Source: Sphingopyxis sp.
GTDB taxonomy: Bacteria; Pseudomonadota; Alphaproteobacteria; Sphingomonadales; Sphingomonadaceae
Direction of reading: 5' to 3'
DNA length: 64,000 bases
Assembly: GCA_016793775.1 (NCBI GenBank)
Contig: JAEULK010000092.1
Coordinates: forward strand, 1 to 64,000
Shown here: piece after piece, positions 18,725 through 55,103 of the stretch
How positions within the stretch are numbered: position 1 is the first letter of the stretch
How the letters are laid out: every line of letters begins with the position of its first letter
Notes under the pieces: model-generated
What the model was told of the DNA's origin: nothing
Seen by the model: only the letters and a program-made list of their open reading frames with translations
Databases searched by the model: none
Program-made: the position numbers and the translations under genes

Positions 18725-18743
18725 GGAGCCTTTGCCTCGCCCT

Positions 18744-18757
18744 ATCTAATAGACCAA
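18744..18757. promoter_or_regulatory. possible GntR-type site near the regulator start
   Basis: On the minus strand TTGGTCTATTAGA resembles one half of the TGGT-ATA-ACCA sites used by NagR/YvoA-type regulators, 20 bases ahead of the regulator gene. A single half is clear, so this is tentative. Confidence 0.35.
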
Positions 18758-18860
18758 TCCAACACCAATTTTTGGGCGAGCGCAAGAATAATTCACGAAT
18801 ATGCGCAAAAAACTTGGATAATCTTGCCCGAACCCGCCCACATGGTTTTTCCTGTTGATA

Positions 18861-18884
18861 TTGGTATTCTCTCTATGTTACCAA
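18861..18884. promoter_or_regulatory. candidate nag operator, TTGGTA-N12-TACCAA
   Basis: A perfect 6-bp inverted repeat TTGGTA (18861-18866) and TACCAA (18879-18884) lies 32 bases before the TBDR start. Its half-sites resemble those of NagR/NagQ regulators, and the adjacent gene encodes such a protein. The 12-base spacer is longer than in the best known NagR sites, which leaves some doubt. Confidence 0.5.
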
Positions 18885-18915
18885 ATTAGGACCACGGAGA
18901 ATGAGGGGACCCTGC

Positions 18916-21579: not shown

Positions 21580-21595
21580 CGGCCCGGCCGTCGTG

Positions 21596-21646
21596 ACGGC
21601 AAGCGGGCGGGGCCATCGCCGCGATGGTCCCGCCCGTTGCCGTTTT
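21596..21646 (+). terminator. intrinsic terminator between the TBDR and hexosaminidase genes
   Basis: A long near-perfect stem (ACGGCAAGCGGGCGG... facing CCGCCCGTTGCCGT) of about 22 bp with a tiny loop is followed by TTTT. It should stop most TBDR transcripts, so the downstream PTS genes get either read-through or their own promoter. Confidence 0.85.
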
Positions 21647-21694
21647 CGGGTCAAATGATGCCGGCCAGAAGGCCGCGGGACGATGGGGAGACAT

Positions 21695-26454: not shown

Positions 26455-28142
26455 GCCTGCTCGGAACCGTCCAGAACCGTCTGCAGCCGATCGGTCGGGC
26501 GCTGATGTTGCCGATCGCGGTGCTGCCCGTCGCCGGGCTGCTGCTGCGCCTCGGCCAGCCCGACCTGCTGAACCTCGCCTTTGTCGCGAGCGCCGGGTCG
26601 GCGATTTTCGCCAATATCGGCCTGCTGTTCGCGATCGGCGTCGGGGTCGGCCTGTCGAAAGAGAATAATGGATCGGCGGGGCTCGCGGGCGCGGTCGCCT
26701 ATCTGGTGCTGACCGAAGGCGCGCGCGCGCTGATGGCGGTGCCGCCCGGCGCGGTGCCAGCGGCGATCACCGATGCCGGCGTCCGCGACACGCTGATCGC
26801 GGCGTGGAAAAGCAAGGAACTCGCCAAGCTCAGCGTGCCCGCGGGCATCCTTTCGGGGCTGGGGGCGGGGTATCTCTACAACCGGTTCCACAGGATCCGC
26901 CTGCCCGAATATCTCGCCTTTTTCGGAGGGCGCCGCTTCGTACCGATCGCCGCCGGCTTTTTCGGTCTGCTCGCCGCGCCGCTGTTCGGTTACGGCTTTC
27001 CGATGATCGAGAGCGCGATCGACGGCCTCAGCCAGTGGGTCATCGGCGCCGGCTCGCTCGGCCTGTTCCTCTATGGCGTGCTCAACCGGTTGCTGATCGT
27101 CACCGGGCTGCACCATATCCTCAACAATCTCGCCTGGTTCGTGCTCGGCGATTTCCACGGGGCGTCGGGCGACCTCAACCGCTTCTTCGCCGGCGACCCG
27201 ACCGCGGGCACCTTCATGAGCGGCTTTTTCCCCGTGATGATGTTCGGCCTGCCCGCCGCCTGCCTCGCCATGTACCGCGCCGCGCGGCCCGAGCGGCGCC
27301 CGGCGGTGCTGGGCATGATGTCGTCGATGGCGCTGACCAGCTTCCTGACCGGGGTCACCGAACCGATCGAATTCAGCTTCATGTTCGTCGCGCCGTTGCT
27401 CTATGCGCTGCACGCCTTTTTGACCGGGGTGTCGATGGTGGTGATGGACCTGCTCGGCGCCAAGCTGGGCTTCGGTTTTTCGGCGGGGCTGTTCGACTAT
27501 CTGCTGAACTACAAGCTCGCGACGCATCCGCTGTGGCTGCTGCCGGTCGGGGCGGTCTATTTCGGCGTCTATTATGCGAGCTTCAGCTTCGTCATCCGCC
27601 GCTTCGACATCATGACCCCCGGCCGCGAACCCGACGAGGCGATCGAGACGGCGGGCGCCGCGCCGCCGTCGGACCGCGCCGAGGCGTTCGTCGCGGCGCT
27701 CGGCGGGCCGGGCAATCTGCTGACGATCGAGGCGTGCACGACGCGCCTGCGGCTGACGCTGGCCGACCGGTCGCGCGCCGATGCGGGCCGGCTGTCGGCG
27801 CTGGGGTCGAAGGGCATGATCGCGGTCGGCGACCAGGGGGTGCAGGTGGTCGTGGGGCCCGAGGCCGACCTGATCGCGAGCGAGATGCGCGCGCGCCGGG
27901 GCGGGGCTGCGGCTGTCTCCGCGGCGCCCGTCGCCGCCGCCGCTCCTGACAAGACTCTGCCGCCCGCTATCGCCGCGATCCTGGGCGGCGACGCCAATGT
28001 CGCCTCGGCGCGGCGCGCGGGCCCGCGCTGGGTGATCGGGCTGGGCAAGTGGCGCGATGGCTATGCGGCGGCGCTGGACGAAAATTGGCGCGGCCGGTGG
28101 GTGCGCAGTAGCGCGGGCCTGGTCCATCTGATCGCGAGCTGA
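26451..28142 (+). CDS. nagE: PTS N-acetylglucosamine permease EIIC-EIIB with a second degenerate EIIB-like tail
   Basis: Inner-membrane transporter that phosphorylates GlcNAc during uptake. Seen: EIIC with about ten membrane segments (residues 15-390; NGSAGLAGAVAYL, GLHHILNN, GVTEPIEF), then EIIB (about 400-480) with phospho-Cys429 in EACTTRLRL. The final ~65 residues (ILGGDANVASARRAGPRW) line up with another EIIB start but carry Ala where the Cys should be. Length 563. It has no EIIA domain, matching the EIIA in the preceding gene. The nag genes thus form a complete import, cleavage and phosphorylation path. Confidence 0.93.
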   Translation: MSLLGTVQNRLQPIGRALMLPIAVLPVAGLLLRLGQPDLLNLAFVASAGSAIFANIGLLFAIGVGVGLSKENNGSAGLAGAVAYLVLTEGARALMAVPPGAVPAAITDAGVRDTLIAAWKSKELAKLSVPAGILSGLGAGYLYNRFHRIRLPEYLAFFGGRRFVPIAAGFFGLLAAPLFGYGFPMIESAIDGLSQWVIGAGSLGLFLYGVLNRLLIVTGLHHILNNLAWFVLGDFHGASGDLNRFFAGDPTAGTFMSGFFPVMMFGLPAACLAMYRAARPERRPAVLGMMSSMALTSFLTGVTEPIEFSFMFVAPLLYALHAFLTGVSMVVMDLLGAKLGFGFSAGLFDYLLNYKLATHPLWLLPVGAVYFGVYYASFSFVIRRFDIMTPGREPDEAIETAGAAPPSDRAEAFVAALGGPGNLLTIEACTTRLRLTLADRSRADAGRLSALGSKGMIAVGDQGVQVVVGPEADLIASEMRARRGGAAAVSAAPVAAAAPDKTLPPAIAAILGGDANVASARRAGPRWVIGLGKWRDGYAAALDENWRGRWVRSSAGLVHLIAS

Positions 28143-28175
28143 TCGGGCCGCGCCGCGGCGTCACCATCAAAATTT

Positions 28176-28195
28176 GACAAAATGTAATTTACGTC
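28176..28195. promoter_or_regulatory. operator A, copy 1 (GAC-N14-GTC palindrome)
   Basis: GAC at 28176-28178 and GTC at 28193-28195 sit 14 bases apart, within AATTTGAC...GTCGCATT. The same arrangement recurs at 34042-34061 and 36926-36945. It lies 45 bases before the phosphotransferase start. I infer it is the binding site of the TetR protein encoded at 36301-36897, next to copy 3. Confidence 0.7.
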
Positions 28196-28239
28196 GCATT
28201 TTTCTCTTGGCACGGTTTGAAAAGTGCCGGGAGAGAGCG

Positions 28240-29364
28240 ATGGCAGAGAATGATGCGCTCGCGGCGAGCCGCGCGATCACCGGCGCGACGCAGCAGGGCG
28301 AGGATGAGCTTGTCGGGGCGCGACTGCGGGATTTCCTGTCGGGGCAGGCCGATATCGGCGGCACCGTCACCGCCATCCGAATCGACGCCGGACGTCGCTC
28401 GGCCGGCGCATCGAGCGGGACGATCCTGTTCGACGCGGAGATCGAAACCGGCGGCGGCAGTCAGACGCGCAGACTGGTGTTCCGATACGACCTCGGCGGC
28501 GCTTTTTTTTGCCAATATGCGCTGCCGCCGCAGTTCGCGATCATGCAGGGCCTGCACGCGCGCGGGCTGCCCGTCCCCAGGGCGCTGTGGCTCGACGCCG
28601 CGGGCGCGGTGAACGGCAAGCCGGGGCTGTTCATGGAGCGGATCGAGGGCATCGCGCCGAGCACGATGCCGTTCAACGAAGGCCCCTATATGGCGGTCGA
28701 CGCGGCGGAACGGCACGCGATGCTGCTCGACGCCGCGCGCACGCTCGCGCTGATGCACCGGACCTCGCCCGAGGGTCTCGCCGACGAGCATTTCGCGCGG
28801 CGCGGCGGCACCGGCCATTATCTCGACCGCGAGATCGGCTGGACGCTGCTCGAACTGCGCCGCACCATCCCGCCCACGGCAGCCGGAACAAAGGCCGAAT
28901 TCTACCGCGACATTCGCGCGACGCTGGAAAAGGTCGCCGACTGGCTGACCGCAAACGCGCCGCGCCACCGTCCCCCCGAACTGGCGCATGGCGACGCCAA
29001 TATCTCGAACTTCATGTATGACGATGTGGGCCGGGTCGTCGCGCTGCTCGACTGGGAGCTGGCGCATCCGGGCGTCGGCGAGGCCGACCTTGCCTATCAG
29101 ATCGCCGGCATCGCGCATTTCGCGCTGCTCGCACCGCCGGTCGATGGCATCCCGGCGCCCGACGAGATGATCGCCGTCTATCGCGAGGCGCGCGGCAAGT
29201 TCGACGACTGGGACTTCGCGCGGGTGCTGGGCGAATGGCGGCTCGCGGTATTCGCCTCGATGGGGATGAGCCGCCTGCCGCCCGAACTCGCAGATGTCGA
29301 GCGGACCTATTGGGCCGCGTCGCGAAAGCGGCTCGCGGCGCTGGTGCCGGGGATCGAGCCATGA
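28240..29364 (+). CDS. APH-type phosphotransferase family protein
   Basis: Kinase-like fold protein of the aminoglycoside/choline phosphotransferase family. Seen: catalytic loop HGDANISN (His250, Asp252, Asn257) and metal-binding Asp in LLDWELAHPG, both intact; VFRYDLGGAFF in the N-lobe. Length 374. Relatives next to acyl-CoA dehydrogenases or in sterol and terpenoid degradation clusters are of unknown substrate; antibiotic resistance is unlikely. The start follows GGGAGAGAG by 2-8 bases. It is the first gene after operator A copy 1, and the DUF7064-type gene begins as ATGA at its stop. Confidence 0.8.
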   Translation: MAENDALAASRAITGATQQGEDELVGARLRDFLSGQADIGGTVTAIRIDAGRRSAGASSGTILFDAEIETGGGSQTRRLVFRYDLGGAFFCQYALPPQFAIMQGLHARGLPVPRALWLDAAGAVNGKPGLFMERIEGIAPSTMPFNEGPYMAVDAAERHAMLLDAARTLALMHRTSPEGLADEHFARRGGTGHYLDREIGWTLLELRRTIPPTAAGTKAEFYRDIRATLEKVADWLTANAPRHRPPELAHGDANISNFMYDDVGRVVALLDWELAHPGVGEADLAYQIAGIAHFALLAPPVDGIPAPDEMIAVYREARGKFDDWDFARVLGEWRLAVFASMGMSRLPPELADVERTYWAASRKRLAALVPGIEP

Positions 29365-30371
29365 TCCCTGCCGACGACATCATCGTCCTGCCGGTCGCGG
29401 ACGAATGGCCGCACCCGCCCGAAGCCGATGCGCACTGGCAGGAAAGCGTCGTCCTGTGCTTCCAGGATATCGAACAGGGGCTCGGCGGCTTCATCCGCAT
29501 CGGCCATCATCCGAACCTCGGGACCGGCAATTGCACTTTCGGGGTGGTGGCGCCGGGCATCGGCTACAACCGCTCGCGGATCGATGTTCCGATGCACGAC
29601 GGCGACCGCTTCGCCAACGGCTTCGCGATCGACGGTTTCCTGACCGCGACCTTCGACAGCGCGACGAACCGCTGGGTCGCCGAAGACGCCGATTGTTCGC
29701 TCGACCTGCATGTCGAGAATCGCCACCCGCATTACGACGCCTGGGCGCTGTCGGGCCTGACCGGCGGCTTTCGCGAGAAATTCGCGTCGATGCACACCGA
29801 GGTCGCGGGGCACGTGCGCGGGACGATGCGGATCGGCGAGCGGAGCTGGGCGGTCGACGGTTTCGGCCATCGCGACCATAGCTGGGGGGTACGCAAGCAT
29901 GACGACCCCGAGGCCGCACTCGCGACCTTTTTCTGGCTCGTCGGTTCTTTCGGTCCCGAGCTGATCTTCAGCATGAGCGAATCGATCACCTTTTCGGGCA
30001 AGCGCAACCGCACCGGCTTCGTGATCCGCAATGGCGAGCTCGCGCGGCCGCTGACGCAGGATGCACGCTTCGGGGTGACGCTCGACGGGATGACGATGCG
30101 CGATGCGCGGGTGGAGTTCGACGCGGGCGCACTCGGCATGCACAGCGTCGAGGTCGAGGGACTCGGCAATGTGCTGCTCGGCATGGGCGGGCGCTATCTG
30201 GAGGTCGGCATGCCGGCGCGCGGGCATTGGAACGGCCGCACCGGCGGGGTGCATCTGAGCACGATGTTCAACGCGCGCGGCGGCACGGGCGCGCCGCCGA
30301 TGCTGTTCGGCACGGCGCCGGCGAACGGCCTCTATCGCTCGTTGGCCTTTCAGGAGGTTCGCAAGCCGTAG
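29361..30371 (+). CDS. DUF7064/DUF7065-type (CrtC/AttH lipocalin-like) protein
   Basis: Soluble 336-residue protein without signal peptide. Segments such as GFIRIGHHPN, GFGHRDHSWGVR and GGVHLSTMF recall the lipocalin-like proteins annotated DUF7064/DUF7065, distant relatives of carotenoid hydratase CrtC and AttH, many of which sit in lipid or terpenoid degradation clusters. The conserved His-rich GHRDHSWG could be a catalytic or binding site (inference). It is translationally coupled to the phosphotransferase by ATGA, so the two probably act on one substrate. It is convergent with the P450 gene, 18 bases away. Reaction unknown. Confidence 0.65.
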   Translation: MIPADDIIVLPVADEWPHPPEADAHWQESVVLCFQDIEQGLGGFIRIGHHPNLGTGNCTFGVVAPGIGYNRSRIDVPMHDGDRFANGFAIDGFLTATFDSATNRWVAEDADCSLDLHVENRHPHYDAWALSGLTGGFREKFASMHTEVAGHVRGTMRIGERSWAVDGFGHRDHSWGVRKHDDPEAALATFFWLVGSFGPELIFSMSESITFSGKRNRTGFVIRNGELARPLTQDARFGVTLDGMTMRDARVEFDAGALGMHSVEVEGLGNVLLGMGGRYLEVGMPARGHWNGRTGGVHLSTMFNARGGTGAPPMLFGTAPANGLYRSLAFQEVRKP

Positions 30372-30389
30372 GCGCCGACGATCGCGTGC

Positions 30390-31643
30390 CTATCGCGCCT
30401 TATAGGCGATCGGCAGACGCTTGAGCCCGCTGACGAAGTTCGAGGCCACCCAGGCGGGATCGCCTGCGAGCTCGATCGCATCGATCCGCGCGAGCAATTC
30501 CTCGAAGAAGATACGGATCTCCATCTTGGCGAGATGCTGGCCGAGGCAGAGGTGCGGGCCATAGCCGAAACCGAGGTGCCGGTTCGGCGGACGCGACAGA
30601 TCGAAGCGGAAGGGGTCGGGAAAGGCGTCGACGTCGCGGTTCGCCGAGGGGTAGCAAAGCATCAGATGGTCGCCCGCCCTGATCGTCTTCCCGCGCAATT
30701 CATAATCGTCCACCGCCGTGCGGAAGAAGTGCTTCACCGGCGTGACCCAACGCACCATCTCGTCGACACCGCCCGCTGCGAGGATGGCGGGATCGGCGCG
30801 CAGCCGCGCCATCTCGCCCGGATTTTGCAGCAGCGCGAGCAGGCCGCCCGCGATCGTCGAGCTGGTCGTGTCGTGCCCCGCGGTCGCGATGATGATGTAA
30901 TAGGACATCAGTTCGAGCGTGCCGATCGGCTGCCCGTCGATTTCGGCGGTCGAGAGCAGGGTCGCGATATCGTCCGAGGGATCGCGGCGCCGCGCCTCGG
31001 TCAGCGCGGCGAAATAGTCGGTGAAGCCCTTGATCGTCGTCGCAAGATCGGGCTTCGGCCCCTTGCGCATATCGGGATCGTCGGGGCCGAAGATGTCGCG
31101 CGTCAACACCAGCATTCGCGCCTCGTCCTCGGCGGGCACGCCGAGGATACGCATGATGACGCGCAGCGGATACCAGACCGCGACATCGTCGACGAAGTCG
31201 CAGGCGCCGCCACGTTCGATCATCTCGCCGACGAAATGCCGCGCGAGCGCGCGCAGATCCGCCTCGAGCGCCTTCAGCCGCGCGGGCATGAACCAAGCCT
31301 GCGTCAGCTTGCGGTGCGCCATATGGTCGCGGCCGTCCATATGGACGATGTCGCGCAGCATCAGCGCGCTGCCGCCGGTCAGCTTGCGCACCTGTTCCTC
31401 GACCGACAGCGGTCGCAGCATCATCCGCGGCGCATTCAGGAATTGCGCGGCGTTGCGCTCGACCTCCTGGATGTCGGCGAATCTGGTGACGCTCCAGAAG
31501 GGGCGATAGTCGGCGGGCGCGGTCCAGTGCACCGGATCTTCCTCGCGCAGCCGCGCGAAGATCCGGTCATAGGAATCGGGGTCGGCGTAGGTCGCGGGGG
31601 CGACGATCGCGTCGTCGTCGATCGGCGGTGCGATCGTCGCCAT
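30390..31643 (-). CDS. cytochrome P450
   Basis: Soluble bacterial P450 monooxygenase of 417 residues. Seen: I-helix AGHDTTSST, ExxR as EMVR, and heme loop FGYGPHLCLG with thiolate Cys366. No ferredoxin or reductase gene lies in the window, so electrons must come from elsewhere. ATG 31643 starts inside the stop of the upstream TBDR (ATGA), so the enzyme is translationally coupled to the importer. The pairing suggests it oxidises the imported compound. Substrate unknown; terpenoid, steroid or alkyl chains are the usual ones for such cluster P450s. Confidence 0.93.
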   Translation of the reverse strand: MATIAPPIDDDAIVAPATYADPDSYDRIFARLREEDPVHWTAPADYRPFWSVTRFADIQEVERNAAQFLNAPRMMLRPLSVEEQVRKLTGGSALMLRDIVHMDGRDHMAHRKLTQAWFMPARLKALEADLRALARHFVGEMIERGGACDFVDDVAVWYPLRVIMRILGVPAEDEARMLVLTRDIFGPDDPDMRKGPKPDLATTIKGFTDYFAALTEARRRDPSDDIATLLSTAEIDGQPIGTLELMSYYIIIATAGHDTTSSTIAGGLLALLQNPGEMARLRADPAILAAGGVDEMVRWVTPVKHFFRTAVDDYELRGKTIRAGDHLMLCYPSANRDVDAFPDPFRFDLSRPPNRHLGFGYGPHLCLGQHLAKMEIRIFFEELLARIDAIELAGDPAWVASNFVSGLKRLPIAYKAR

Positions 31644-33958
31644 CAGAAGTTGAACCCGACGCGCACGCCATAGGTCGCCGGCGGCGCCGCGCGCGCGTTG
31701 CGCACGAGGCCGCTGATCGGCAGGCCGCTGTCGAAATATTTCTCGTCGGTGATGTTCGCCGCGAACAGCGAGACGAGCCAGCGGTCGCCGGGGGCGGTAT
31801 AGGTCAGGCTGGCATCGACGAGTTGCATGCTGTGCGCGTCGGCGCCGCCGGTGCCGGTCAGATTTTCGGCATCGAAATAATAGCCGTCGTTGTGCGAGGC
31901 ATCGACCGACAGTTTGAGTTCGCCGTCGCCGACCGGCAATTTGACGTCGGCGCCGAGCGACAGCGCGAATTTCGGCGCGCCCGCCAGGCGGTTGCCCTTG
32001 ATGAAGAGCACCCCGGCCCCACCCGCCGACTGGACATCGCGGTCGTAGCTGGTGTCGAGGATCAACCCGTTCGAGCGCAGCGTGACCATCGGCGACACCT
32101 GCCACAGCAGGTCATATTGCGCGCCGCCGATCTTCGCGCCGGTGCCGTTGACGAGGATGTTCGATCCGCTCGCCGAATCGGTGTAGGCGATGTGGATATT
32201 GCCATAATCATAATAGAAGGCGCCGAGGTTGAGCCGCGCGTCGGGCGACAGGCGGATTTTCGCACCGCCCTCGAACGAGGTGATCGTCTCGGGCGTGACG
32301 CCGGGGCTGAGAAGGTTGGTGTTCGAGAGCGTCGCGCCCTTGAACCCGGTCGAGACCCCCGCATAGAGCAGGAGGTCGCCGGTGTCGTACTGGACGCGGC
32401 CGGTATAGGTGAACTTCGATCCCTTCAGCACCTGCTTCCCCTGGTTCGGGGTACCGAAGACGTTGCGCGGGTCGGTCAGCGAGATGAAGTCGTTGCTGGT
32501 ATATTTTTCGTCGGTGTAGCGTCCGCCGGCGGTGATGCTGAGCTGGTCGGTGATCGGCACGGTGATCTGGCCGAAACCCGCGATCGACTTGTTCTGCCAG
32601 CGGTTGTCGGCGGTCAGCGCCGAGAGCGGCGGCAGGTCGCCGGTGAGCAGCACGTCGCCCGCGGCGTCGAGATAGACCACCCCCGCGATCCACTGGACCG
32701 GCGAATCGATCGAGGCGATCTGGAATTCCTGCTGCCAGGTGCGCGACGGGAAATCGCCGGTGAAACCGACCGAGCCGCCCCGGAAGCCGACCGGATAGCT
32801 GGTCGGGTCGGCAAAGAGAATTTCGGTGGCCGAGAGCGATTCGGCGGTCTGGTAGGCGGTCAGCGAGCTGACCTCGACCGAGCCGAGGTCGAGCGTCGCC
32901 TTGGCCGAATAGGTTTCGGTGTTGAGCTGGACGAACGAGCCCGCCGGTCCGGGGCGCAGGATGCCGCGGGTCGAGCCATTGGCTTCATTCTCGTAGGTCG
33001 CGCCATGCCGGTTGCCGAAGCGCAGGTTCGCCGCCGCCGCCAGCGCATCGGCGGCGGGCACGCCGAAGCTCTGCAGAAAGCCCGCATAATAGAGCTGCGA
33101 CCCGTTGAGCCCGGTCCCGCCGACGTCGATGTCGAGTCCCACCGCCTGATAGCCCTGCCCCGACCGGTCGTCGGATTCGAAATGCTGGGCGCGCAGCACC
33201 AGGTCGAACTGCTCGGACGGCTTGAACACCAGGACGGCGCCGATCGACTTGGAATCGCGGTCGTAGAAATCGTCGTTGCTGCTGCCCGTTCCCGGCAGGT
33301 TGAGGTTCTTGATATAACCGTCGCGCTTGCGGATCGACCCGTTGACCGAGAAGGCGAGCATGTCGCCGAGTCCGCCCGAGACGATCGCCGAGACCTCGCG
33401 ATTGTCGTAATTGCCGTAACCGGCGCGGAAGCGGCCCGAGAGCGGATCGCCCGGCCGCGGCGTCTTGGTCGTCACGACGATCGCGCCGCCGGTCGCGTTG
33501 CGGCCATAGAGCGAGCCCTGCGGTCCTTCGAGCACCTGCACCTGTTCGACATTGTCGAGGTCGAAGGCGGCGCTGGTCAGCGTCGAGATATAGACGCCGT
33601 CGACATAGGTGGCGACGCTCGCCGCCTGCCCCGCGCCGGTGACGGTCGAGCCGACGCCGCGGATGAAGGGGGTGACGTTGCTCGCCTGGTTCTGGACGGT
33701 CAGCGACGGCGTCAGCTTGGGCAGGTCCTGCAGCGTCGACACGTTGCGCGCCTCCAGCACATCGGGTTCGACGGCGGTGACCACCACCGGGACCTTCTGG
33801 AGATTTTCGGAGCGGCGCTGCGCGGTCACGACGATATCGACAAGGCCGCTTTCTTCCTCGGCGGCGGGGGCACCGGCCGGTGCGGCACCCTGAGCCCAGG
33901 CGGGTGAAACGGCGGTGGTGGCGATGGCGACCCCGGCCAACATGACAGCCTTATGCAT
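31643..33958 (-). CDS. TonB-dependent receptor, coupled to the P450
   Basis: Outer-membrane importer of 771 residues. Seen: signal peptide ending SPAWAQ, TonB-box region DIVVTAQRRSENLQKVP, plug domain with TPFIRGVGST, VYISTLTSAAFDL and QVLEGPQGSLYGRNATGG, and a barrel ending GVRVGFNF. The GPQGtLyGrNatgG form is common in receptors from aromatic, terpenoid and steroid degradation loci. GGGAGAGG lies before the ATG. It is divergent from the molybdopterin oxidoreductase, and the shared 188-base gap carries operators A copy 2 and B copy 1. Confidence 0.92.
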   Translation of the reverse strand: MHKAVMLAGVAIATTAVSPAWAQGAAPAGAPAAEEESGLVDIVVTAQRRSENLQKVPVVVTAVEPDVLEARNVSTLQDLPKLTPSLTVQNQASNVTPFIRGVGSTVTGAGQAASVATYVDGVYISTLTSAAFDLDNVEQVQVLEGPQGSLYGRNATGGAIVVTTKTPRPGDPLSGRFRAGYGNYDNREVSAIVSGGLGDMLAFSVNGSIRKRDGYIKNLNLPGTGSSNDDFYDRDSKSIGAVLVFKPSEQFDLVLRAQHFESDDRSGQGYQAVGLDIDVGGTGLNGSQLYYAGFLQSFGVPAADALAAAANLRFGNRHGATYENEANGSTRGILRPGPAGSFVQLNTETYSAKATLDLGSVEVSSLTAYQTAESLSATEILFADPTSYPVGFRGGSVGFTGDFPSRTWQQEFQIASIDSPVQWIAGVVYLDAAGDVLLTGDLPPLSALTADNRWQNKSIAGFGQITVPITDQLSITAGGRYTDEKYTSNDFISLTDPRNVFGTPNQGKQVLKGSKFTYTGRVQYDTGDLLLYAGVSTGFKGATLSNTNLLSPGVTPETITSFEGGAKIRLSPDARLNLGAFYYDYGNIHIAYTDSASGSNILVNGTGAKIGGAQYDLLWQVSPMVTLRSNGLILDTSYDRDVQSAGGAGVLFIKGNRLAGAPKFALSLGADVKLPVGDGELKLSVDASHNDGYYFDAENLTGTGGADAHSMQLVDASLTYTAPGDRWLVSLFAANITDEKYFDSGLPISGLVRNARAAPPATYGVRVGFNF

Positions 33959-34041
33959 CTTCCTCTCCCTTCAGATCGTGGAGCTTTTCGCTCCATCTTT
34001 CTGCTTGCCAGGTCCCGCAGCGCTGGCGCATAGCGCGACAC

Positions 34042-34061
34042 GACAAAAATTAATATTCGTC
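34042..34061. promoter_or_regulatory. operator A, copy 2
   Basis: GAC at 34042-34044 and GTC at 34059-34061, again 14 bases apart; with the flanking C and G the core CGACAAAAA...TTCGTCG is the most symmetric of the three copies. It is midway between the TBDR start (33958) and the molybdopterin oxidoreductase start (34147), so it could control both. Confidence 0.72.
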
Positions 34062-34086
34062 GTATTTTATTCTGTCAAGCGCGCAA

Positions 34087-34102
34087 TTAAATGCTCGTTT
34101 AA
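34087..34102. promoter_or_regulatory. operator B, copy 1 (TTAAATG-N2-CGTTTAA)
   Basis: TTAAATGCTCGTTTAA differs by one arm base from the perfect palindromes at 40191-40206 and 40213-40228 between the second TetR gene and the aldehyde dehydrogenase. It lies 45 bases before the molybdopterin oxidoreductase start and next to operator A copy 2. Confidence 0.62.
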
Positions 34103-34146
34103 TCAGCTTCAAAGCGGGTTTGCCAGAAAATCGGGCGGAGAGGAAA

Positions 34147-36300
34147 ATGGCCGACAGCGGCGCGAATCGAAGCGATCACATCAGTTTCTGCCGGTTGTGC
34201 GAGGCCTTTTGCGGCACCGTCGTCACGGTCGAGGACGGGCGCCCGGTCAAGCTGTCGCCCGACCGCGACAATCCGCACACGCAGGGGCATATCTGCGTCA
34301 AGGGGGCGGCGATCGTCGATATCGCCAACGACCCCGACCGCGTCCTGCGGCCCTTGAAGCGCGTCGGCGGACCGGGCGAATTCGCCGAAGTGTCGTGGGA
34401 CGAGGCGTTGGACGATATCGCGGCGCGGCTGTCGGCGATCATCGCGCGCGACGGACCCGAAGCGGTCGCGACCTATTTCGGCAATCCGGGCGCCTTTTCG
34501 ACCGACACCTTCCTGGCGAGCCAATGGTTCCTGCAGCGGATCGGCAGCGGCAAATTCTATGCCGCGGGATCGCAGGACAGCACCTCGCGCCATCTGGCGA
34601 GCTGGATCCTCTATGGCGTCGCCTTTCGCAACGCGATCCCCGACCTGCCGCATTGCGACCTGCTGATCATCACCGGCGCCAACCCGCTGGTGTCGCACGG
34701 GGGGCTGCTCACCGCGCCGCGGATGCGCCACGACCTCGACGCGATCGCCGCGCGCGGGCGGGTGATCGTCATCGATCCGCGCCGCACCGAAACCGCCAGA
34801 CGCTATGAGCATGTCGCGATCCAGCCCGACGCCGACGCCTGGCTGCACGCCGCGATGCTGAAAGCGATGATCGACGCAAAGGCCGTCGACGAGGCCTTCC
34901 TCGCCGCGCATTGCACCGGCTGGGACGAACTGCGCGACGCGGTGCGCGGCGTCGACCTCGACGAGGCGGCCGCGGCGACCGGCATCGCGCGCGCCGCGAT
35001 CGAAAAGCTGGCGCTCGACTTCGCCGCCGCGCCGCGCGCCGCCATCTATGGCCGTGTCGGCCTGTGCCGCGGGCGCTTCTCGACGCTCGCCAATCTGCTG
35101 CTCGATGCGATCAACATCGCGGGGGGCAAGTTCGGCCAGGTCGGCGGATCGACCTTCGGCGCCTTTCCGCTCGCCGAGGGGGCCGAGCCATTGTCGGGCT
35201 ATGGCGAGCACCGCACGCGCATCGGCGACCTGCCCGTCGTCGCGGGGCTGATGCCCGCCGCGGCGCTGCCCGACGACATATTGGAACCGGGCGAAGGCCG
35301 GGTGCGCGCGATGATGGTGATCGCCGGCAATCCGGTGCTGTCGGCGCCGGGTGGCGCGCGGCTCGAACAGGCGCTGGAATCGCTCGACCTGCTGTTCTCG
35401 ATCGATCTTTATGTGACCGAGACCAACCGCTTCGCCGACTATATCCTGCCCGCCGCGACCTTCCTCGAGAAGGACGATATCCCGCTGATCGGCCTGTCGC
35501 ACATGGTGCGCCCCTATATCCAATATGCGCGTGCGGCGGTGCCGCCGATGGGCGAGGCGCGCGAGGAGAAGGCGATCTTCGACGATCTGGCCGCGCGCAT
35601 GGGATTGGGCTCGATCGCCCCGACGCCGGGGCTGCGCTGGCTCGAACGCCAGGGGATGACGATCACGCCGCTGACCCTCGTCGAACTCGGCTTGCGCCAC
35701 GGGCCGCTCGGCAAGCGGCGCGGCGACGACGCGCTGAGCTTCGCCCGGCTCGCCGCGATGCCGCACGGCACGATGCTCGACCTGCCGCTCACCTATGACG
35801 GCTGGGCCGGTCATCTCGCGACCGAGGACCGCAAGATCCGCCTGTGGCACCCGATCGTCGCGGAGGAGTTCGCCCGCTTCGCCGCGCATCGCGCCGCGCC
35901 ACCCGAGCCGGCGGCGCTGAAGCTGTTCAGCCAGCGCAAGCTCAAGTCGATGAACAGCTGGATGCACAATCCCGAGAAGCTGGCGCGGTCGCAGGAGCCC
36001 GCGCTGCTCGTCCACCCCGCCGACGCGGCGCGGCACGGCCTCGCCGACGGCGGCCGCGCGCGCGTGTCGAACGACCATGGCGCAGTCGAGGTCGCGGTCG
36101 AGATCAGCGCCGATGTGATCGAGGGCGCGGTCTGCTACCCGCACGGCTGGGGGCACAATGGCGGCTGGCGCCATGCGAACACGCTGCCCGGCGCGAACAT
36201 CAACCTGCTGCTCGGGCTCGGTCCGGCCGCGGTCGAGCGCGTGTCGGGGACGACCTTCATCGACGGCATCCCGGTGACGGTAACGCCGATCGCCGCCTGA
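34147..36300 (+). CDS. single-subunit molybdopterin oxidoreductase (formate dehydrogenase/DMSO reductase superfamily)
   Basis: Cytoplasmic Mo/W-bisMGD enzyme. Seen: N-terminal 4Fe-4S motif with Cys15, Cys18, Cys22 and Cys50 (CRLCEAFC, HICVKG), the Mo-cofactor core with ITGANPLVSHG, VIDPRRTETA and AGNPVLSAPGG, and a C-terminal cofactor-binding domain (NDHGAVEV, YPHGWGHNGGW). No twin-arginine signal, so it stays in the cytoplasm. No Sec or Cys stands where FdhF has its Mo ligand; the local sequence AGSQDSTSRH suggests Asp or Ser instead (inference). Length 717. AGAGGAAA precedes the ATG. No electron-transfer subunit is nearby, and the substrate is unknown. Confidence 0.88.
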   Translation: MADSGANRSDHISFCRLCEAFCGTVVTVEDGRPVKLSPDRDNPHTQGHICVKGAAIVDIANDPDRVLRPLKRVGGPGEFAEVSWDEALDDIAARLSAIIARDGPEAVATYFGNPGAFSTDTFLASQWFLQRIGSGKFYAAGSQDSTSRHLASWILYGVAFRNAIPDLPHCDLLIITGANPLVSHGGLLTAPRMRHDLDAIAARGRVIVIDPRRTETARRYEHVAIQPDADAWLHAAMLKAMIDAKAVDEAFLAAHCTGWDELRDAVRGVDLDEAAAATGIARAAIEKLALDFAAAPRAAIYGRVGLCRGRFSTLANLLLDAINIAGGKFGQVGGSTFGAFPLAEGAEPLSGYGEHRTRIGDLPVVAGLMPAAALPDDILEPGEGRVRAMMVIAGNPVLSAPGGARLEQALESLDLLFSIDLYVTETNRFADYILPAATFLEKDDIPLIGLSHMVRPYIQYARAAVPPMGEAREEKAIFDDLAARMGLGSIAPTPGLRWLERQGMTITPLTLVELGLRHGPLGKRRGDDALSFARLAAMPHGTMLDLPLTYDGWAGHLATEDRKIRLWHPIVAEEFARFAAHRAAPPEPAALKLFSQRKLKSMNSWMHNPEKLARSQEPALLVHPADAARHGLADGGRARVSNDHGAVEVAVEISADVIEGAVCYPHGWGHNGGWRHANTLPGANINLLLGLGPAAVERVSGTTFIDGIPVTVTPIAA

Positions 36301-36897
36301 TCAGCGCCCCATCACGCTGGGGCCGAGGAAGTCGCGCACCAGCGCGTCCATCGCGGCGCGGTCGTCGAGATCCTCGGGCGGCCGCGCGAGCAGCGCACGA
36401 TAGACGAAGCTCAGCCACCATTCGAGCCGCTCGACCGATATGTCCGAGCGCACCTGGCCGGTCGCGCGCAGCCGTTCGATCACGGGCGACCAATATTCGT
36501 GCATCATCAACTCGATCACGCGCGAATGTTCGGCGAGCTCGTTGACGAACCCGACCGAGCCCTCCTCGAACATGCCCTCGAAAATCGGCATCGCGCGCGC
36601 GGCGTCGACCAGCGCGATGACCGCCGCCGACAGCAGCGCCCCGCCCTCCAGATCGTCGGGGATATTTTCCTTGGCGCGTTCGTTGACCAGCGCGCCTTCG
36701 CGCAGCAGCACCGCGGTCGCCAGCTGCTGCTTGTTCGGGAAATAATTATAGATGGTCTGGCGCGTGATCCCCGACCCCCTGGCCACCGCCTCCATCCGCA
36801 GCCTTTTGTAGCCGACCTTGGCGATCACCTGATTCGCGGCGTCCAAAATGCGCGCCTGCGTCCGCCGTGCCACCTCGGTTTCGAGTTCATTATCCAT
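36301..36897 (-). CDS. TetR/AcrR-family regulator (candidate operator-A repressor)
   Basis: 198-residue repressor with helix-turn-helix RMEAVARGSGITRQTIYNYFPNKQQL (about residues 34-59) and a divergent ligand-binding C-terminal domain (SIERLEWWLSFVYRALLA). It is divergent from the amidohydrolase, with operator A copy 3 lying between. I infer it controls all three operator A promoters. It is convergent with the molybdopterin oxidoreductase gene. Confidence 0.88.
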   Translation of the reverse strand: MDNELETEVARRTQARILDAANQVIAKVGYKRLRMEAVARGSGITRQTIYNYFPNKQQLATAVLLREGALVNERAKENIPDDLEGGALLSAAVIALVDAARAMPIFEGMFEEGSVGFVNELAEHSRVIELMMHEYWSPVIERLRATGQVRSDISVERLEWWLSFVYRALLARPPEDLDDRAAMDALVRDFLGPSVMGR

Positions 36898-36925
36898 CGT
36901 TTACCCGCAGAAAATCTAAAAATTT

Positions 36926-36945
36926 GACGAATTTTATTTTTTGTC
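36926..36945. promoter_or_regulatory. operator A, copy 3
   Basis: GAC at 36926-36928 and GTC at 36943-36945 with a 14-base spacer, again flanked by AATTT and GCATT exactly as in copy 1. It lies between the divergent TetR and amidohydrolase starts, where an autoregulating TetR protein would be expected to bind. Confidence 0.72.
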
Positions 36946-36983
36946 GCATTATTGTCCAGTAACGACAAGCTGGGAGATTTGTC

Positions 36984-38726
36984 ATGTACGGTTTCGACCT
37001 CGTCATCAAGAACGGGACGATCATCGACGGAACGCGCTTTCCGCGTTTCAAATCGGACATCGGGGTCAGGGACGGCAAGATCGCGCGCGTCGGCCCGATC
37101 GCCGACCCCGGCAGCGCGCGCGTGATCGACGCCGAGGGCCTGATCGTCGCCCCCGGGCATATCGACACCCACACCCATTATGATGCGCAGATCTTCTGGG
37201 ACCCGACCTGCTCGAACGCGGGCGAGAATGGCATCACCACCGTCGTCACCGGCAATTGCGGCTTCGGCTTTGCCCCCGTCCATGTGAAGGACCGCGAGCG
37301 CGCGATGCTGATGATGGAGACCACCGAACAGGTCCCCGCGATCCAGATGCAGACCGCGCTCCCCTGGTCGTGGGAGACATTTCCCGAACTGGTCGAGGCG
37401 ATGCGGCGGACGCCCAAGGCGGTCAACCTGACGATGTTCCTGCCGCTCAACGCGGTGATGTTCTATGTCATGGGCGAGGCGGCGAAGCACCGCCGCCCGA
37501 CCGCGGCCGAGATCGCGACGATCAAGGGGCTGATCCACGAGGCGATGGACGCCGGCGCCTGCGGCCTGTCGCTGAGCTTCATGGGGCGCGAGAACAACCA
37601 TGTCGACGTCGACGGATCGCCGATGCCGACCGATATCATGCACCCCGACGACGCCTGTGCGATGGCGCGCGCGCTCAGCGAGCGGCAGGAGGGCATGATC
37701 CAGGTCATCTCGCAGATCGGCCCGGTCGGCGACCGCAGCATCAGCGAGAAACTGGCGCGCGAAACCGGGCGTCCGATCCTGCACAATGTGTTCTCGGTCA
37801 GCGAATATACCCCCGACCTCCACCGCCAGAGCATGGCCTGGCTCGACGCGATGAACGAAGAGGACGGCGTCGAGATGTACGCCGCGACGGTCATCTGCCG
37901 CGCCTGGAACGAGACCGAGCTGTTCAATTCGCCCGGCTGCTCGCTCGACGCGCTCGACGTCTATCGCGAGTTGACCTTTTGCAAGGATGCCGCCGACAAG
38001 CGCGCCAAGCTGCTCGATCCCGAATTCCGCCGCCGCTTCAACGAGAGTTACGACCCGGTGATGTTCGAGGCGACCGCGGGCGGGCTCGCCGACTATACCG
38101 TCATCGGCATGGGTCCCGGATCGAACGACGCAAAAAACTATCTCGGCAGGACGCTGGGCGACATCGCGGCCGCCGAGGGCAAGAGCGAGGTCGACGCCTT
38201 CATCGACACCGCGCTCGAAAGCGACCTGCGCATCGAGCTCAAGACCCCCGGCATCGCGATCGACCCCGCCAAGGTCGCCGATCTGCTGTCGAACGGCCGC
38301 GTGCTCGCGGGCGCGTCGGACGGCGGCGCGCACACCAAGAATTTCAGCGGCGGCCAATGGACCACCGACCTGATCCTGTGGCTCGTGCGCGACAATGACT
38401 TCCTCTCGCTCGAGGAAATGCATTACCGCCTGTCCTACCAGCCCGCGCGCGCGATGGGGATCAAGGACCGCGGCGCGCTGCTCGAGGGCATGGCGGCCGA
38501 TATGCTGATCTATGACCTGGGCGAGCTCTATTTCGACCAGGACCGCTTCGACGTCGTCCACGACCAGCCGGGGGGCGACTGGCGGCGCAAGGCGCGCGCG
38601 GGGGGGTATCGCCAGATCTTCGTCAACGGCGAGCAGACCTTCGAGCGCGACCGCCCGCTCGGCGCGACGCCGGGGGTCTACCTCGGCGACGCCGCGCCGC
38701 GTCCGCAGATCGCGCGCGCCGCCTGA
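36984..38726 (+). CDS. amidohydrolase, N-acyl-D-amino-acid deacylase family
   Basis: Metal-dependent hydrolase of the D-aminoacylase/dihydroorotase-like superfamily. Seen: metal motif GHIDTHTHYDAQ with His63 and His65, NCGFGFAPV, SLSFMG, VFSVSEYTPD and the Asp-bearing GASDGGAHTKNF near residue 440. Length 580, longer than classic D-aminoacylases (about 480). Members cleave amide or cyclic-imide bonds in diverse compounds; in sphingomonad catabolic clusters the substrate is usually not known. GGGAG sits 8 bases before the ATG. The SDR gene follows 7 bases after its stop. Confidence 0.85.
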   Translation: MYGFDLVIKNGTIIDGTRFPRFKSDIGVRDGKIARVGPIADPGSARVIDAEGLIVAPGHIDTHTHYDAQIFWDPTCSNAGENGITTVVTGNCGFGFAPVHVKDRERAMLMMETTEQVPAIQMQTALPWSWETFPELVEAMRRTPKAVNLTMFLPLNAVMFYVMGEAAKHRRPTAAEIATIKGLIHEAMDAGACGLSLSFMGRENNHVDVDGSPMPTDIMHPDDACAMARALSERQEGMIQVISQIGPVGDRSISEKLARETGRPILHNVFSVSEYTPDLHRQSMAWLDAMNEEDGVEMYAATVICRAWNETELFNSPGCSLDALDVYRELTFCKDAADKRAKLLDPEFRRRFNESYDPVMFEATAGGLADYTVIGMGPGSNDAKNYLGRTLGDIAAAEGKSEVDAFIDTALESDLRIELKTPGIAIDPAKVADLLSNGRVLAGASDGGAHTKNFSGGQWTTDLILWLVRDNDFLSLEEMHYRLSYQPARAMGIKDRGALLEGMAADMLIYDLGELYFDQDRFDVVHDQPGGDWRRKARAGGYRQIFVNGEQTFERDRPLGATPGVYLGDAAPRPQIARAA

Positions 38727-38733
38727 CCGAACC

Positions 38734-39519
38734 ATGCTCCGCGACAAGGTCATCCTGATCGTCGGCGGTTCGACGGGCATCGGGCGCGCGACCGCGATCG
38801 CCTGCGGACAAGCGGGCGCGACCGTCGTGGTCGGCGCGCGCGACCGCGCCAAAGCCGAAGAGGTGGCTGGCGAAGCCGCGCGGGCGGGCGCGCCGCACAC
38901 GCTGGGGCTGCCCGTCGACGTGCGCGCCTCCGACGCGGTGAATGCCTTTGTCTCCGCCGCCGCCGACAGCTTCGGCCGGCTCGACGGCGCGGTGAACAAT
39001 GCCGGGGTCGAGGGGCGGATGGCGCCGATGCACGCGCTGACCGACGCCGATTATGCCGAGATCATGGACGTCAACGCGCGCGGCGTGTTTTTCGCGATGC
39101 GCGCCGAGATCGCGGCGATGGGAGGCGGGGGCGGCGCGATCGTCAACGTCGGGTCGGTCGGGTCCTTCACCGGGCTGGTCGGCCAGTCGGTCTATGCCGC
39201 GTCCAAACATGCGGTGTGGGCGCTCACCCGCTCGGCGGCGGTCGAACAGGCGGGACGCGGCATCCGGATCAACATGGTCGCTCCCGCCGGCACCGAAACG
39301 CCGATGCTGCACCGCGTGCTGCGGGGCAATGAGGAGGCGATGCGCGGCGCCGCGAAGATGCACCCGATCGGCCGTTTCGGCACGCCCGAGGAAAGCGCCG
39401 CGGCGATCGTCTGGCTCTTGTCCGACGCCGCCGCCTTCGTGTGCGGCCAGTCGATCGGGGTCGACGGCGGCTATTCGGCGACGCTGGGCTTCAACCCGCA
39501 GGCGGCGCTCGCGAACTAG
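38734..39519 (+). CDS. short-chain dehydrogenase/reductase
   Basis: NAD(P)-dependent alcohol dehydrogenase of the classical SDR fold, 261 residues. Seen: glycine motif GGSTGIG at residues 11-17, NNAGVEG, catalytic YAASK with preceding Ser in NVGSVGS, and the C-terminal DGGYSATLG typical of cyclohexanol- and hydroxysteroid-type SDRs. I chose the ATG 7 bases after the amidohydrolase stop because it starts exactly at the Rossmann strand. It forms an operon with the amidohydrolase and is convergent with the next TetR gene. Confidence 0.92.
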   Translation: MLRDKVILIVGGSTGIGRATAIACGQAGATVVVGARDRAKAEEVAGEAARAGAPHTLGLPVDVRASDAVNAFVSAAADSFGRLDGAVNNAGVEGRMAPMHALTDADYAEIMDVNARGVFFAMRAEIAAMGGGGGAIVNVGSVGSFTGLVGQSVYAASKHAVWALTRSAAVEQAGRGIRINMVAPAGTETPMLHRVLRGNEEAMRGAAKMHPIGRFGTPEESAAAIVWLLSDAAAFVCGQSIGVDGGYSATLGFNPQAALAN

Positions 39520-40166
39520 CGGACGAGCATCCCGCCAACGATCAGGTCGGTGACGGTGGCGACATAACGATCGATCAGGTCGTGATCGAGCGCGCCGTCG
39601 CCCAATATGGTGCGGCGCGATTGCTCCGACGAAAAGAGATGCGCGCAGGCGCCGTCGATCGCGAAGCTTACCAGATCGGCATCGACCGGGCGAAACTCGC
39701 CGCGCGCGACGCCGTCGGCGATGATCGCGCGCCGCGCCTCGGTGACGGGTCGGACGAAGGTCGTGCCGACCTTCTCCGACGCCTCGGGCGAGGCTTCGCG
39801 GAGCAATTTGTGGAGCAGGCGGTTGAGATAGGGCCGATCGAAATAAGACTCGATCATCCCGCGGATATGCCGTTCCATCTTGGCGGTCGGCGTCATGTCC
39901 GCGGCGAGGAGGCGGTCGAGATGCCCCGCGGCGCGGCGTGCGTCGGCCTCGACGATCGCGATCATCAGACCCTCGCGATTGCCGAAATAATAGCTGACCA
40001 GCGCGACATTGGTGCCCGCGCGTTCGGAGATGTCGGCGATCGAGACCTCGAGCAGGTCGCGCTCGACCATCAGGCTGCGCGCGGCATCGACGATCCGCTG
40101 CGCCGTCGCCGGCTGCGCGGATTTTTCTTCGGCCCTGTCCTTGGCCCCGCCCTTGGCCATGTTCAT
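39516..40166 (-). CDS. TetR/AcrR-family regulator (candidate operator-B repressor)
   Basis: 216-residue repressor. Seen: helix-turn-helix SIADISERAGTNVALVSYYFGNREGL (about residues 42-67) and a ligand domain of the CerR/PsrA-like kind (DRLLAADMTPTAKMERHIRG, DADLVSFAIDGACAH). A strong GGAGAGGAG site lies 6 bases before ATG 40166. It is divergent from the aldehyde dehydrogenase, with two perfect operator B palindromes between them, so it very likely represses both. Confidence 0.9.
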   Translation of the reverse strand: MNMAKGGAKDRAEEKSAQPATAQRIVDAARSLMVERDLLEVSIADISERAGTNVALVSYYFGNREGLMIAIVEADARRAAGHLDRLLAADMTPTAKMERHIRGMIESYFDRPYLNRLLHKLLREASPEASEKVGTTFVRPVTEARRAIIADGVARGEFRPVDADLVSFAIDGACAHLFSSEQSRRTILGDGALDHDLIDRYVATVTDLIVGGMLVR

Positions 40167-40190: not shown

Positions 40191-40228
40191 TTAAATGTTC
40201 ATTTAATCCGGCTTAAATGGACATTTAA
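40191..40228. promoter_or_regulatory. operator B, copies 2 and 3 (tandem palindromes)
   Basis: TTAAATGTTCATTTAA (40191-40206) and TTAAATGGACATTTAA (40213-40228) are both perfect 7-bp inverted repeats with a 2-base spacer. Their centres are 22 bases apart, two helical turns, fitting two repressor dimers on one DNA face. A third, slightly diverged copy is at 34087-34102. Confidence 0.85.
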
Positions 40229-40260: not shown

Positions 40261-41679
40261 ATGAATTTCGACACCGGCTATTCGATGCTGATCGACGGCG
40301 CGCTGACCGGCAGCGACGGCGAGATCGAGGTGATCAATCCCGCGACCGGCGAAGTGTTCGCTTCCGCCCCCGATTGTTCGGAGGCGCAGCTCGACGCCGC
40401 GGTGACCGCCGCGAACCGCGCCTTCAAGAGCTGGCGGAACGTGCCGATCGAGGAACGGCAGGCCTGCCTGCTCAAAGCCGCCGACATATTGGCCGCGCAT
40501 ACCGAAGAACTCGCGCGCCTCTTTACCCGCGAACAGGGCCGCCCCACCGATGGCGCCCGGTCCGAAATCGGCATCGGGGTCGCGTGGCTGCGGGCCTATG
40601 CCGCGATGACGCCGCCGGTGCATGTGATCGACAAGGGCGACGGCCAGCGTATCGAAACCCATTATGTGCCGCTCGGCGCGGTCTGCGCGATCTCGCCCTG
40701 GAATTTCCCGGTCAACCTGTCGATCTGGAAGATCGCCCCGGCGCTGGCCGCGGGGAACACCATTGTCCTCAAACCCTCGCCCTTCACCCCGCTCTGCATG
40801 CTCAAGATCGGCGAGCTGCTGAAGGACGTCTTTCCGGCGGGGGTGCTCAACATCGTCTCGGGCGGCGACGCGCTCGGCCCCTTGATGACCGCGCATCCGG
40901 GCTTCGCCAAAATCTCGTTCACCGGCTCGACCGCGACGGGCAAGCGCGTGATGGAAAGCGCCGCGAAGGATTTGAAGCGCCTGACGCTCGAACTCGGCGG
41001 CAACGACGCCGCGATCGTGCTGCCCGACGTCGATCTCGACGAGGTCGCGCAGAAGATCTTCTTCGGCGCCTTTTTCAACAGCGCGCAGATCTGCGTCGCG
41101 ACCAAGCGCCTCTATGTCCATGACAGCATCTATGACGCGCTGCGCGACCGCCTCGCCGCGATCGCGCAGGCGGTGAAGCTCGGCGACGGCAGCGAGCAGG
41201 GGGTCGTGCTCGGCCCCTTGCAGAACCGCCGCCAGTTCGAGCGCGTCACCGCGCTGATCGACGATGCACGCGCCGCAGGTCTCACCCTGGTCGAAGGTCC
41301 GGCGGGACCCGATAGCGGCGGTTATTTCATCCCCATCACCATCGTCGATAACCCGCCCGAGGATGCGGCGGTGGTGCAGGAAGAAGCCTTTGGCCCGGTG
41401 CTGCCGATGATGCGCTTCGACGATGTCGACGCGGTCGTCGATCGCGCCAATGCCAGCGACTATGGCCTCGCCGGGGCGGTGTGGTCGAAGGATGTCGATC
41501 AGGCGGTCGCGATCGCCCGCCGCCTCGAAACGGGCACGGTGTGGATCAACCAGAATCTGATGCTGCGCCCCGACACCCCCTTTGCCGGCCACAAGCAGAG
41601 CGGTTTCGGGATCGAGAATGGGCTGGAGGGCATGCTCGAATATATGGTGCCGCAGAGCATCTATATTCCGCTGCGATAG
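40261..41679 (+). CDS. NAD(P)-dependent aldehyde dehydrogenase
   Basis: Oxidises an aldehyde to a carboxylic acid. Seen: SPWNFPVNLSIWKIAPALAAGN, NAD motif SFTGSTATGK, general base Glu244 in ELGG and nucleophile Cys278 in SAQICVATKR, then the C-terminal EEAFGPVLP and AGHKQSGFGIENG. Length 472. The Cys lies in a QIC context as in the vanillin/succinate-semialdehyde-like class. It is single behind the operator B tandem, so the regulator likely senses the aldehyde, its acid or its CoA ester. It fits a pathway in which an alcohol made by the P450 is oxidised by the SDR then by this enzyme (inference). Confidence 0.95.
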   Translation: MNFDTGYSMLIDGALTGSDGEIEVINPATGEVFASAPDCSEAQLDAAVTAANRAFKSWRNVPIEERQACLLKAADILAAHTEELARLFTREQGRPTDGARSEIGIGVAWLRAYAAMTPPVHVIDKGDGQRIETHYVPLGAVCAISPWNFPVNLSIWKIAPALAAGNTIVLKPSPFTPLCMLKIGELLKDVFPAGVLNIVSGGDALGPLMTAHPGFAKISFTGSTATGKRVMESAAKDLKRLTLELGGNDAAIVLPDVDLDEVAQKIFFGAFFNSAQICVATKRLYVHDSIYDALRDRLAAIAQAVKLGDGSEQGVVLGPLQNRRQFERVTALIDDARAAGLTLVEGPAGPDSGGYFIPITIVDNPPEDAAVVQEEAFGPVLPMMRFDDVDAVVDRANASDYGLAGAVWSKDVDQAVAIARRLETGTVWINQNLMLRPDTPFAGHKQSGFGIENGLEGMLEYMVPQSIYIPLR

Positions 41680-44124: not shown

Positions 44125-44144
44125 GTTACCGTCCGGTCGGTAAT
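44125..44144. promoter_or_regulatory. operator C, copy 1 (GTTACCG...GGTAAT palindrome)
   Basis: GTTACCGTCCGGTCGGTAAT is a 20-base inverted repeat with few mismatches and nearly matches the sequence at 45022-45041. It lies 65 bases before the TBDR start and 136 bases before the TetR start. Confidence 0.75.
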
Positions 44145-44279
44145 ATAGCTTTCTATCCTTGTCAAATCGGCGATGACCGCGCCCCCTATTGACCAGCGGG
44201 TCGTGACGGACCTATGCCTCGGCTGAGGGGTCGTCCGAACAGCCGCAAAGAGCGGCCCATCGGGCGCAAGGTGAATGCA

Positions 44280-45021: not shown

Positions 45022-45041
45022 GTTACCGACTAGTAGGTAAT
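45022..45041. promoter_or_regulatory. operator C, copy 2
   Basis: GTTACCGACTAGTAGGTAAT shares 15 of 20 bases with copy 1 in my alignment, and is a palindrome of the same design. It ends 13 bases before the first enoyl-CoA hydratase-family gene, so a bound repressor would block the start of that operon. Confidence 0.75.
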
Positions 45042-54973: not shown

Positions 54974-55053
54974 ATATCCTCCCCTGAGCGGCCTGTGCCG
55001 ATCGCTCGTTGCGGGCCCGATCCTTCGAGCCTCTTGAGCTACATTATGATCTC

Positions 55054-55075: not shown

Positions 55076-55103
55076 ATTCAGGCGACGACAGAAATGGACT
55101 ATA

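Follow-up and report, generated by a model that had tools for sequence, protein, structure and literature searches.

A catabolic gene cluster of Sphingopyxis sp., contained in the 64,000-nucleotide stretch analysed here (contig JAEULK010000092.1, positions 1 to 64,000; hereafter the window), carries the same AT-rich palindrome, termed motif 1, in three intergenic regions. These precede an APH-DUF7065 operon, separate the genes of a TonB-dependent receptor (TBDR) and a cytochrome P450 from that of a molybdopterin oxidoreductase, and separate the gene of a TetR-type regulator (TetR1, 36301-36897) from that of an amidohydrolase. Judged from sequence comparison, motif 1 is very probably the operator of TetR1, which would repress five transcription units until released by the substrate of the pathway or an early intermediate, with a second TetR protein (TetR2) adding an input through a palindrome of its own, motif 2.

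An earlier note on this DNA had described three copies of a GAC-N14-GTC palindrome at 28176-28195, 34042-34061 and 36926-36945, and each of these positions indeed reads so. The second copy does lie between the TBDR/P450 and molybdopterin genes and the third between a TetR gene and an amidohydrolase gene, with the gene families as the note had named them, while the phosphotransferase pair placed behind the first copy is correct for one member only: the first gene belongs to the APH family (PF01636), but the second is of the DUF7065/DUF7064 type. The flanks, said to be shared, are so on the right (GTCGCATT, GTCGTATT and GTCGCATT) and partly on the left, where two sites have AATTT and the remaining one has GACAC. 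As a descriptor, bare GAC-N14-GTC had to be dropped, because its counts match those of the controls, both in the window (18 versus 21.6 ± 4.8 in shuffles) and in the genome (923 versus 975 for the reversed pattern).

What the three sites have in common is a longer palindrome, about AATNYGACRAAWWTWWWWTTYGTCRNATT, with aligned half-sites of about AATNYGACRAAAWTT, a short form GACRAA-N8-TTYGTC and a whole operator of ~30 bp, located 23-80 bp ahead of the genes on either side. The 24-base degenerate pattern GACRAAWWTWAWWTTNNGTCGYAT, at up to 3 mismatches, yields four matches at three places in the window, the fourth being the middle site read on the opposite strand too, compared with 0.01 ± 0.10 in shuffles. 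A degenerate 25-mer at the same tolerance matches the three sites only in the 3.93-Mb assembly to which the window belongs (106 contigs, 96% complete), and its reversed control gives 0. Both patterns were derived from the window sites themselves, and the independent test of these sites is their conservation in other genomes.

Relatives bearing the cluster were sought by scanning the TetR1 protein against the genome contigs of 84,980 species, each represented by a single genome, a procedure that detects close relatives only. Six loci were obtained, two of them remote (31-35% identity) and four close (87-97%): Sphingopyxis sp. HIX, Novosphingobium sp. MD-1, a Novosphingobium metagenome-assembled genome (MAG) and a Sphingopyxis MAG. 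Among plasmid records, 11 match TetR1 and one does so closely, that of Novosphingobium sp. EMRT-2 (86%). In the resulting six genomes or records with a close TetR1 (86-100% identity), motif 1 occupies 18 of the 18 expected places before the same three gene groups, and 15 of 15 in the five relatives taken by themselves; the same operator thus adjoins the regulator gene and precedes the operons of the cluster, as in the EdcR system compared below. All 11 distinct versions of the site are more symmetric than their shuffles (P from <0.0002 to 0.016).

The palindrome pattern used in these comparisons, YGACRAAWWWWWWWWTTYGTCR, was fixed after the sites of the first relatives had been seen, and the independent cases are the three sites of EMRT-2 and, in both MD-1 and the Novosphingobium MAG, the third site; a pattern taken from the window only had already matched two sites in an MD-1-like genome. 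At up to 2 mismatches, YGACRAAWWWWWWWWTTYGTCR is found at 17 places in five genomes, namely the 15 expected and two strays. Exactly 3 mismatches give 17 further places (G000, 5; G397, 5; G398, 6; G400, 1); none of the contigs concerned carries the cluster, and none of these places was counted as a site. The reversed control at up to 3 mismatches gives 2, 1, 0, 0 and 0 in G000, G397, G398, G399 and G400. Genomes G380 and G399 have identical coordinates and were counted once, as MD-1.

The position of the operator is likewise maintained. The initial view of the locus contained two sites in both MD-1 and the Novosphingobium MAG, and the third was later located with a displaced APH operon: in MD-1 its distance from the TBDR/molybdopterin site is 10.1 kb, as against 5.9 kb in the window, and ~4 kb of other genes separate the APH operon from the P450 gene, while in the Novosphingobium MAG operon and site are on a separate contig. 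The site-to-start gaps are still 43 and 47 bp in these displaced operons, within the 42-47 bp observed in all six cases. Alignment columns are more often invariant in the operator than in its flanks in the APH upstream region (21/30 versus 8/71, Fisher p 9e-9, with regions cut relative to the motif), the tetR1 region (28/30 versus 35/57, p 0.001) and the TBDR region (28/30 versus 99/159, p 0.0003). In MD-1 (L021, about 8092-8171) and EMRT-2 (L055, 18038-18166), no match to the short-chain dehydrogenase (SDR) at E 1e-30 follows the amidohydrolase gene, and the operators are kept; in EMRT-2 the feature table gives a 129-bp hypothetical gene at this position.

Co-occurrence in a sample of the family points in the same direction. 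TetR1 is present at E 1e-25 in 2 of 397 genomes (at most 8 candidates scored per genome), and exactly these two have more than one motif 1 match at up to 2 mismatches. At E 1e-60 the APH gene is likewise found in these two genomes, 2/387 (at most 5 candidates scored). The molybdopterin gene reaches E 1e-150 in 6/387 (at most 2 candidates scored), with 88-100% identity in the two TetR1 genomes and 45-47% in the four others; a second copy in the own genome has 52%. Because the palindrome, the target genes and TetR1 travel together across genomes, a regulon under TetR1 is well supported by comparison. The note's proposal of one regulon under this regulator has accordingly stood up to comparison, except that TetR1 is not alone: TetR2, with its own palindrome, had been missed.

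As regards the protein, TetR1 contains an N-terminal TetR_N helix-turn-helix (PF00440, 53.6 bits versus a cut-off of 24, residues 17-63), and 44 of the 47 Pfam positions of this DNA-binding part are invariant across five orthologues. In the mechanism that we favour, a TetR1 dimer would occupy the palindrome in the short upstream regions and keep the polymerase off. Five units would be repressed in this way: tetR1 itself, amidohydrolase-SDR, TBDR-P450, the molybdopterin oxidoreductase gene and APH-DUF7065. Binding of the pathway substrate or an early intermediate would then release TetR1, and TetR2, acting through motif 2 both on its own operon and on the shared TBDR/molybdopterin region, would supply a second input. 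Computation shows that the sites exist, are nearly unique and are conserved; TetR1 binding, repression and induction, as well as the exact promoters and the substrate, we infer.

Promoter-like hexamers overlap each motif 1 site (Table 1), and they rise above shuffles for the TBDR gene and tetR1 only, that is, for 2 of the 5 units. A stricter scan of 28000-37100 returned 4 promoter-like sites compared with 1.1 ± 1.0 expected.

Table 1. Operators, promoter-like sequences, further palindromes and genes of the cluster in the window.
Feature	Coordinates	Strand	Remarks
Operator 1 (motif 1)	28171..28200	no strand	upstream of APH-DUF7065 operon
Operator 2 (motif 1)	34037..34066	no strand	between TBDR-P450 genes and molybdopterin oxidoreductase gene
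Operator 3 (motif 1)	36921..36950	no strand	between tetR1 and amidohydrolase gene
Promoter-like TTGACA-N17-CATTTT before APH operon	28174..28202	+	consensus match; P 0.06 vs shuffles, marginal; absent from stricter scan
Promoter-like TTGACA-N17-TATTAA before TBDR gene	34050..34078	-	10/12; P 0.010 vs shuffles; overlaps operator 2; absent from stricter scan
Promoter-like ACGACA-N17-TATTTT before molybdopterin gene	34040..34068	+	8/12, tied with another match; P 0.68, chance-level; overlaps operator 2
Promoter-like TTGACG-N17-CATTAT before amidohydrolase gene	36924..36952	+	P 0.20 vs shuffles; in stricter scan
Promoter-like TGGACA-N16-TAAAAT before tetR1	36931..36958	-	P 0.026 vs shuffles; in stricter scan
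Motif 2 palindrome TTAAATGCTCGTTTAA, probable TetR2 site	34087..34102	no strand	beside operator 2; one mismatch to TTAAATGNNCATTTAA
Two motif 2 palindromes TTAAATGNNCATTTAA	40191..40228 (40191-40206, 40213-40228)	no strand	between tetR2 and aldehyde dehydrogenase gene
APH-family kinase-like gene	28240..29364	+	PF01636
DUF7065/DUF7064 gene	29355..30371	+	
Cytochrome P450	30390..31643	-	nearest solved relative P450terp
TonB-dependent receptor (TBDR)	31643..33958	-	
Molybdopterin oxidoreductase	34147..36300	+	
TetR1	36301..36897	-	predicted motif 1 binder
Amidohydrolase	36984..38726	+	D-aminoacylase-like
Short-chain dehydrogenase (SDR)	38734..39519	+	
TetR2	39516..40166	-	predicted motif 2 binder
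Aldehyde dehydrogenase	40261..41679	+	
Third TetR gene	44214-44936		PF00440

Several observations weigh against assigning motif 1 to TetR1. Only five relatives could be compared, all of them close (TetR1 86-97%), and the flanks are themselves much conserved in the tetR1 and TBDR regions. Two off-cluster strays match at 2 mismatches, one inside a long open frame of the own genome (G000) and one in the HIX genome (G397), and three other genomes of the family sample have one 2-mismatch match each without TetR1. Moreover, the promoter-like sequences before the APH, amidohydrolase and molybdopterin genes stand out little, and the stricter scan places promoters at operators for tetR1 and the amidohydrolase only, both at operator 3, its other two hits lying elsewhere.

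TetR1 might be merely adjacent to one of the sites, with motif 1 bound by the neighbouring TetR2 or by a distant regulator. TetR2 is likewise present in all six genomes or records, and co-occurrence alone cannot tell the two proteins apart. The palindromes next to the genes speak for TetR1: upstream of tetR2, the window and HIX have motif 2 without motif 1, and in the other four motif 2 precedes an operon whose last gene is tetR2, whereas the distance from the tetR1 start codon to the beginning of the 30-bp motif 1 is 23 bp in the window and differs from this by no more than 1 bp in the five relatives. Because TetR2 and the third TetR of the region each adjoin a palindrome of another type, motif 1 is left to TetR1, and binding by TetR2 or a distant protein appears unlikely. 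It could also be argued that the sites resemble each other as common sigma-70 promoters (TTGACA-N17-TATAAT-like) with no operator involved, given that two of them start with TTGACA or TTGACG followed after 17 bp by CATTTT or CATTAT. The symmetric GTC half would, however, fall in the promoter spacer, and promoter spacers are not generally conserved. In addition, the middle site retains the palindrome although its + strand hexamers are at chance level, and the extended site occurs only three times in the assembly, so that plain promoter likeness was set aside as very improbable.

Least probable of all, and hardly credible to us, is that the sites are conserved merely through recent sharing of the cluster between strains. 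Cluster DNA identity is 83-92% across the four contig loci (L020-L023), and the cluster is plasmid-borne in the fifth strain, both of which would fit such sharing; but the APH flanks have diverged where the operator has not, and the three sites within one genome are alike despite preceding unrelated genes. The upstream neighbour of the APH gene also differs between the window and the Sphingopyxis MAG: from their translations, we take it to be phosphotransferase system (PTS) genes in the former, following the GH20/NagA-like set described below, and a monooxygenase-like open frame in the latter.

The palindrome that we assign to TetR2 is itself conserved. Scanning the window for TTAAATGNNCATTTAA at up to 3 mismatches has a shuffle mean of 0.19, and at up to 1 mismatch the pattern is found at 3, 3, 3, 2, 2 and 2 places in five genomes and the EMRT-2 plasmid, all at the cluster. 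Exact TTAAATGNNCATTTAA occurs in 3/397 family genomes, two of which bear the cluster. In EMRT-2 and the Sphingopyxis MAG, the operon ending in tetR2 encodes an enoyl-CoA hydratase-related protein and a CoA transferase. With motif 1 and motif 2 side by side, the TBDR/molybdopterin region is probably under the dual control of TetR1 and TetR2.

The third TetR gene is flanked by two copies of motif 3, TTACC-N8-GGTAA (44126-44143 and 45023-45040), which precede a TBDR gene and an operon for an enoyl-CoA hydratase, an acyl-CoA dehydrogenase and an AMP-ligase. At 0 mismatches these are the only copies in the genome; at up to 2 mismatches motif 3 is not commoner than its control (5 and 6 versus 11 and 10 reversed). 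We give roughly even chances to a broader picture of a catabolic island with three neighbouring TetRs, each with its own palindrome, in which motifs 1 and 2 at the TBDR/molybdopterin region would form a two-signal gate controlling how an undescribed substrate is taken up and first oxidized. If the region does read two TetR proteins, it would lend itself well to studies of the control that sphingomonads exert over the entry of unusual carbon sources.

Among described systems, the closest arrangement that we found is that of EdcR, a TetR-like protein that represses the estradiol degradation cluster in Caenibius tardaugens. According to the report on EdcR (PMC8700777), the effectors are estradiol and estrone, and the proposed palindrome TnnCnnTACnAnTnGTAnnGnnA is common to two operon promoters, with a weaker form at the edcR promoter and at that of a transporter gene; the same text states that the operator of KstR also precedes its own gene. 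In both systems a TetR-type gene adjoins the catabolic cluster of a sphingomonad and a palindrome is common to operon promoters, but the TAC-N5-GTA core is present in 0 of the 11 distinct motif 1 versions, which sets them apart by operator, the proteins being left uncompared. Among solved structures, the best sequence match of TetR1 is KstR, a TetR-type repressor of cholesterol catabolism in actinobacteria (E 2.6e-8, residues 2-76), a match restricted to the DNA-binding part. TetR1 scores 37.8 bits against the NCBIfam KstR equivalog model, whose cut-off is 280, and its best NCBIfam model, of the ScbR type, is also far below cut-off (46.0 versus 150). PheR of Sphingobium was dropped as a comparison, as it belongs to the IclR family (PMC13273656). 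A literature search, in which the motif letters were not among the terms, found no paper on this cluster. The kind of control proposed here is ordinary and common, and what is new is this system of it.

With regard to function, the regulon unites the TBDR, the P450, the molybdopterin enzyme, the amidohydrolase and the APH-type kinase in one probable pathway, a grouping relevant to the identity of the substrate, and it makes three exact predicted operators and a candidate sensor protein available. P450terp is the closest of the solved structures to the cluster P450 (E 5.4e-109), a likeness that does not require a terpene substrate; the other cluster genes are presumably unlike those of the terp operon. 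The solved relatives of the molybdopterin enzyme include formate dehydrogenases and acetylene hydratase, and those of the amidohydrolase are D-aminoacylase-like. None of these relatives of the three enzymes, nor NCBIfam or the literature, gives a name for the substrate; our guess is a bulky compound, perhaps a terpenoid or one bearing an amide, which the regulon would serve to take up and degrade. MD-1 figures in publications on microcystin degraders, which raises a possible link to the breakdown of microcystin. The APH gene has no NCBIfam match at E 0.001 and falls only in the broad Pfam family, and it was not recognized as an aminoglycoside-resistance kinase in this search, which lay outside resistance-gene databases. 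By analogy, a role like that of LvaA, described as a kinase of 4-hydroxyacyl-CoA (PMC11342911), is possible.

Because the cluster is plasmid-borne in Novosphingobium sp. EMRT-2, it may have moved between replicons; the plasmid concerned, NZ_CP039697.1 (L055), is 757 kb long and typed as non-mobilizable in PLSDB. Elsewhere in the window, 15805-28142 encodes NagA-like, SIS and GntR-UTRA proteins, a TBDR and a GH20 protein, a probable N-acetylglucosamine/chitobiose set. Beside a tRNA-Gly, the stretch 51908-61411 has a lower G+C content (0.59-0.64 in 2-kb steps from 52001 to 62000) and carries TBDR, AbrB-type, CitMHS transporter and two-component genes.

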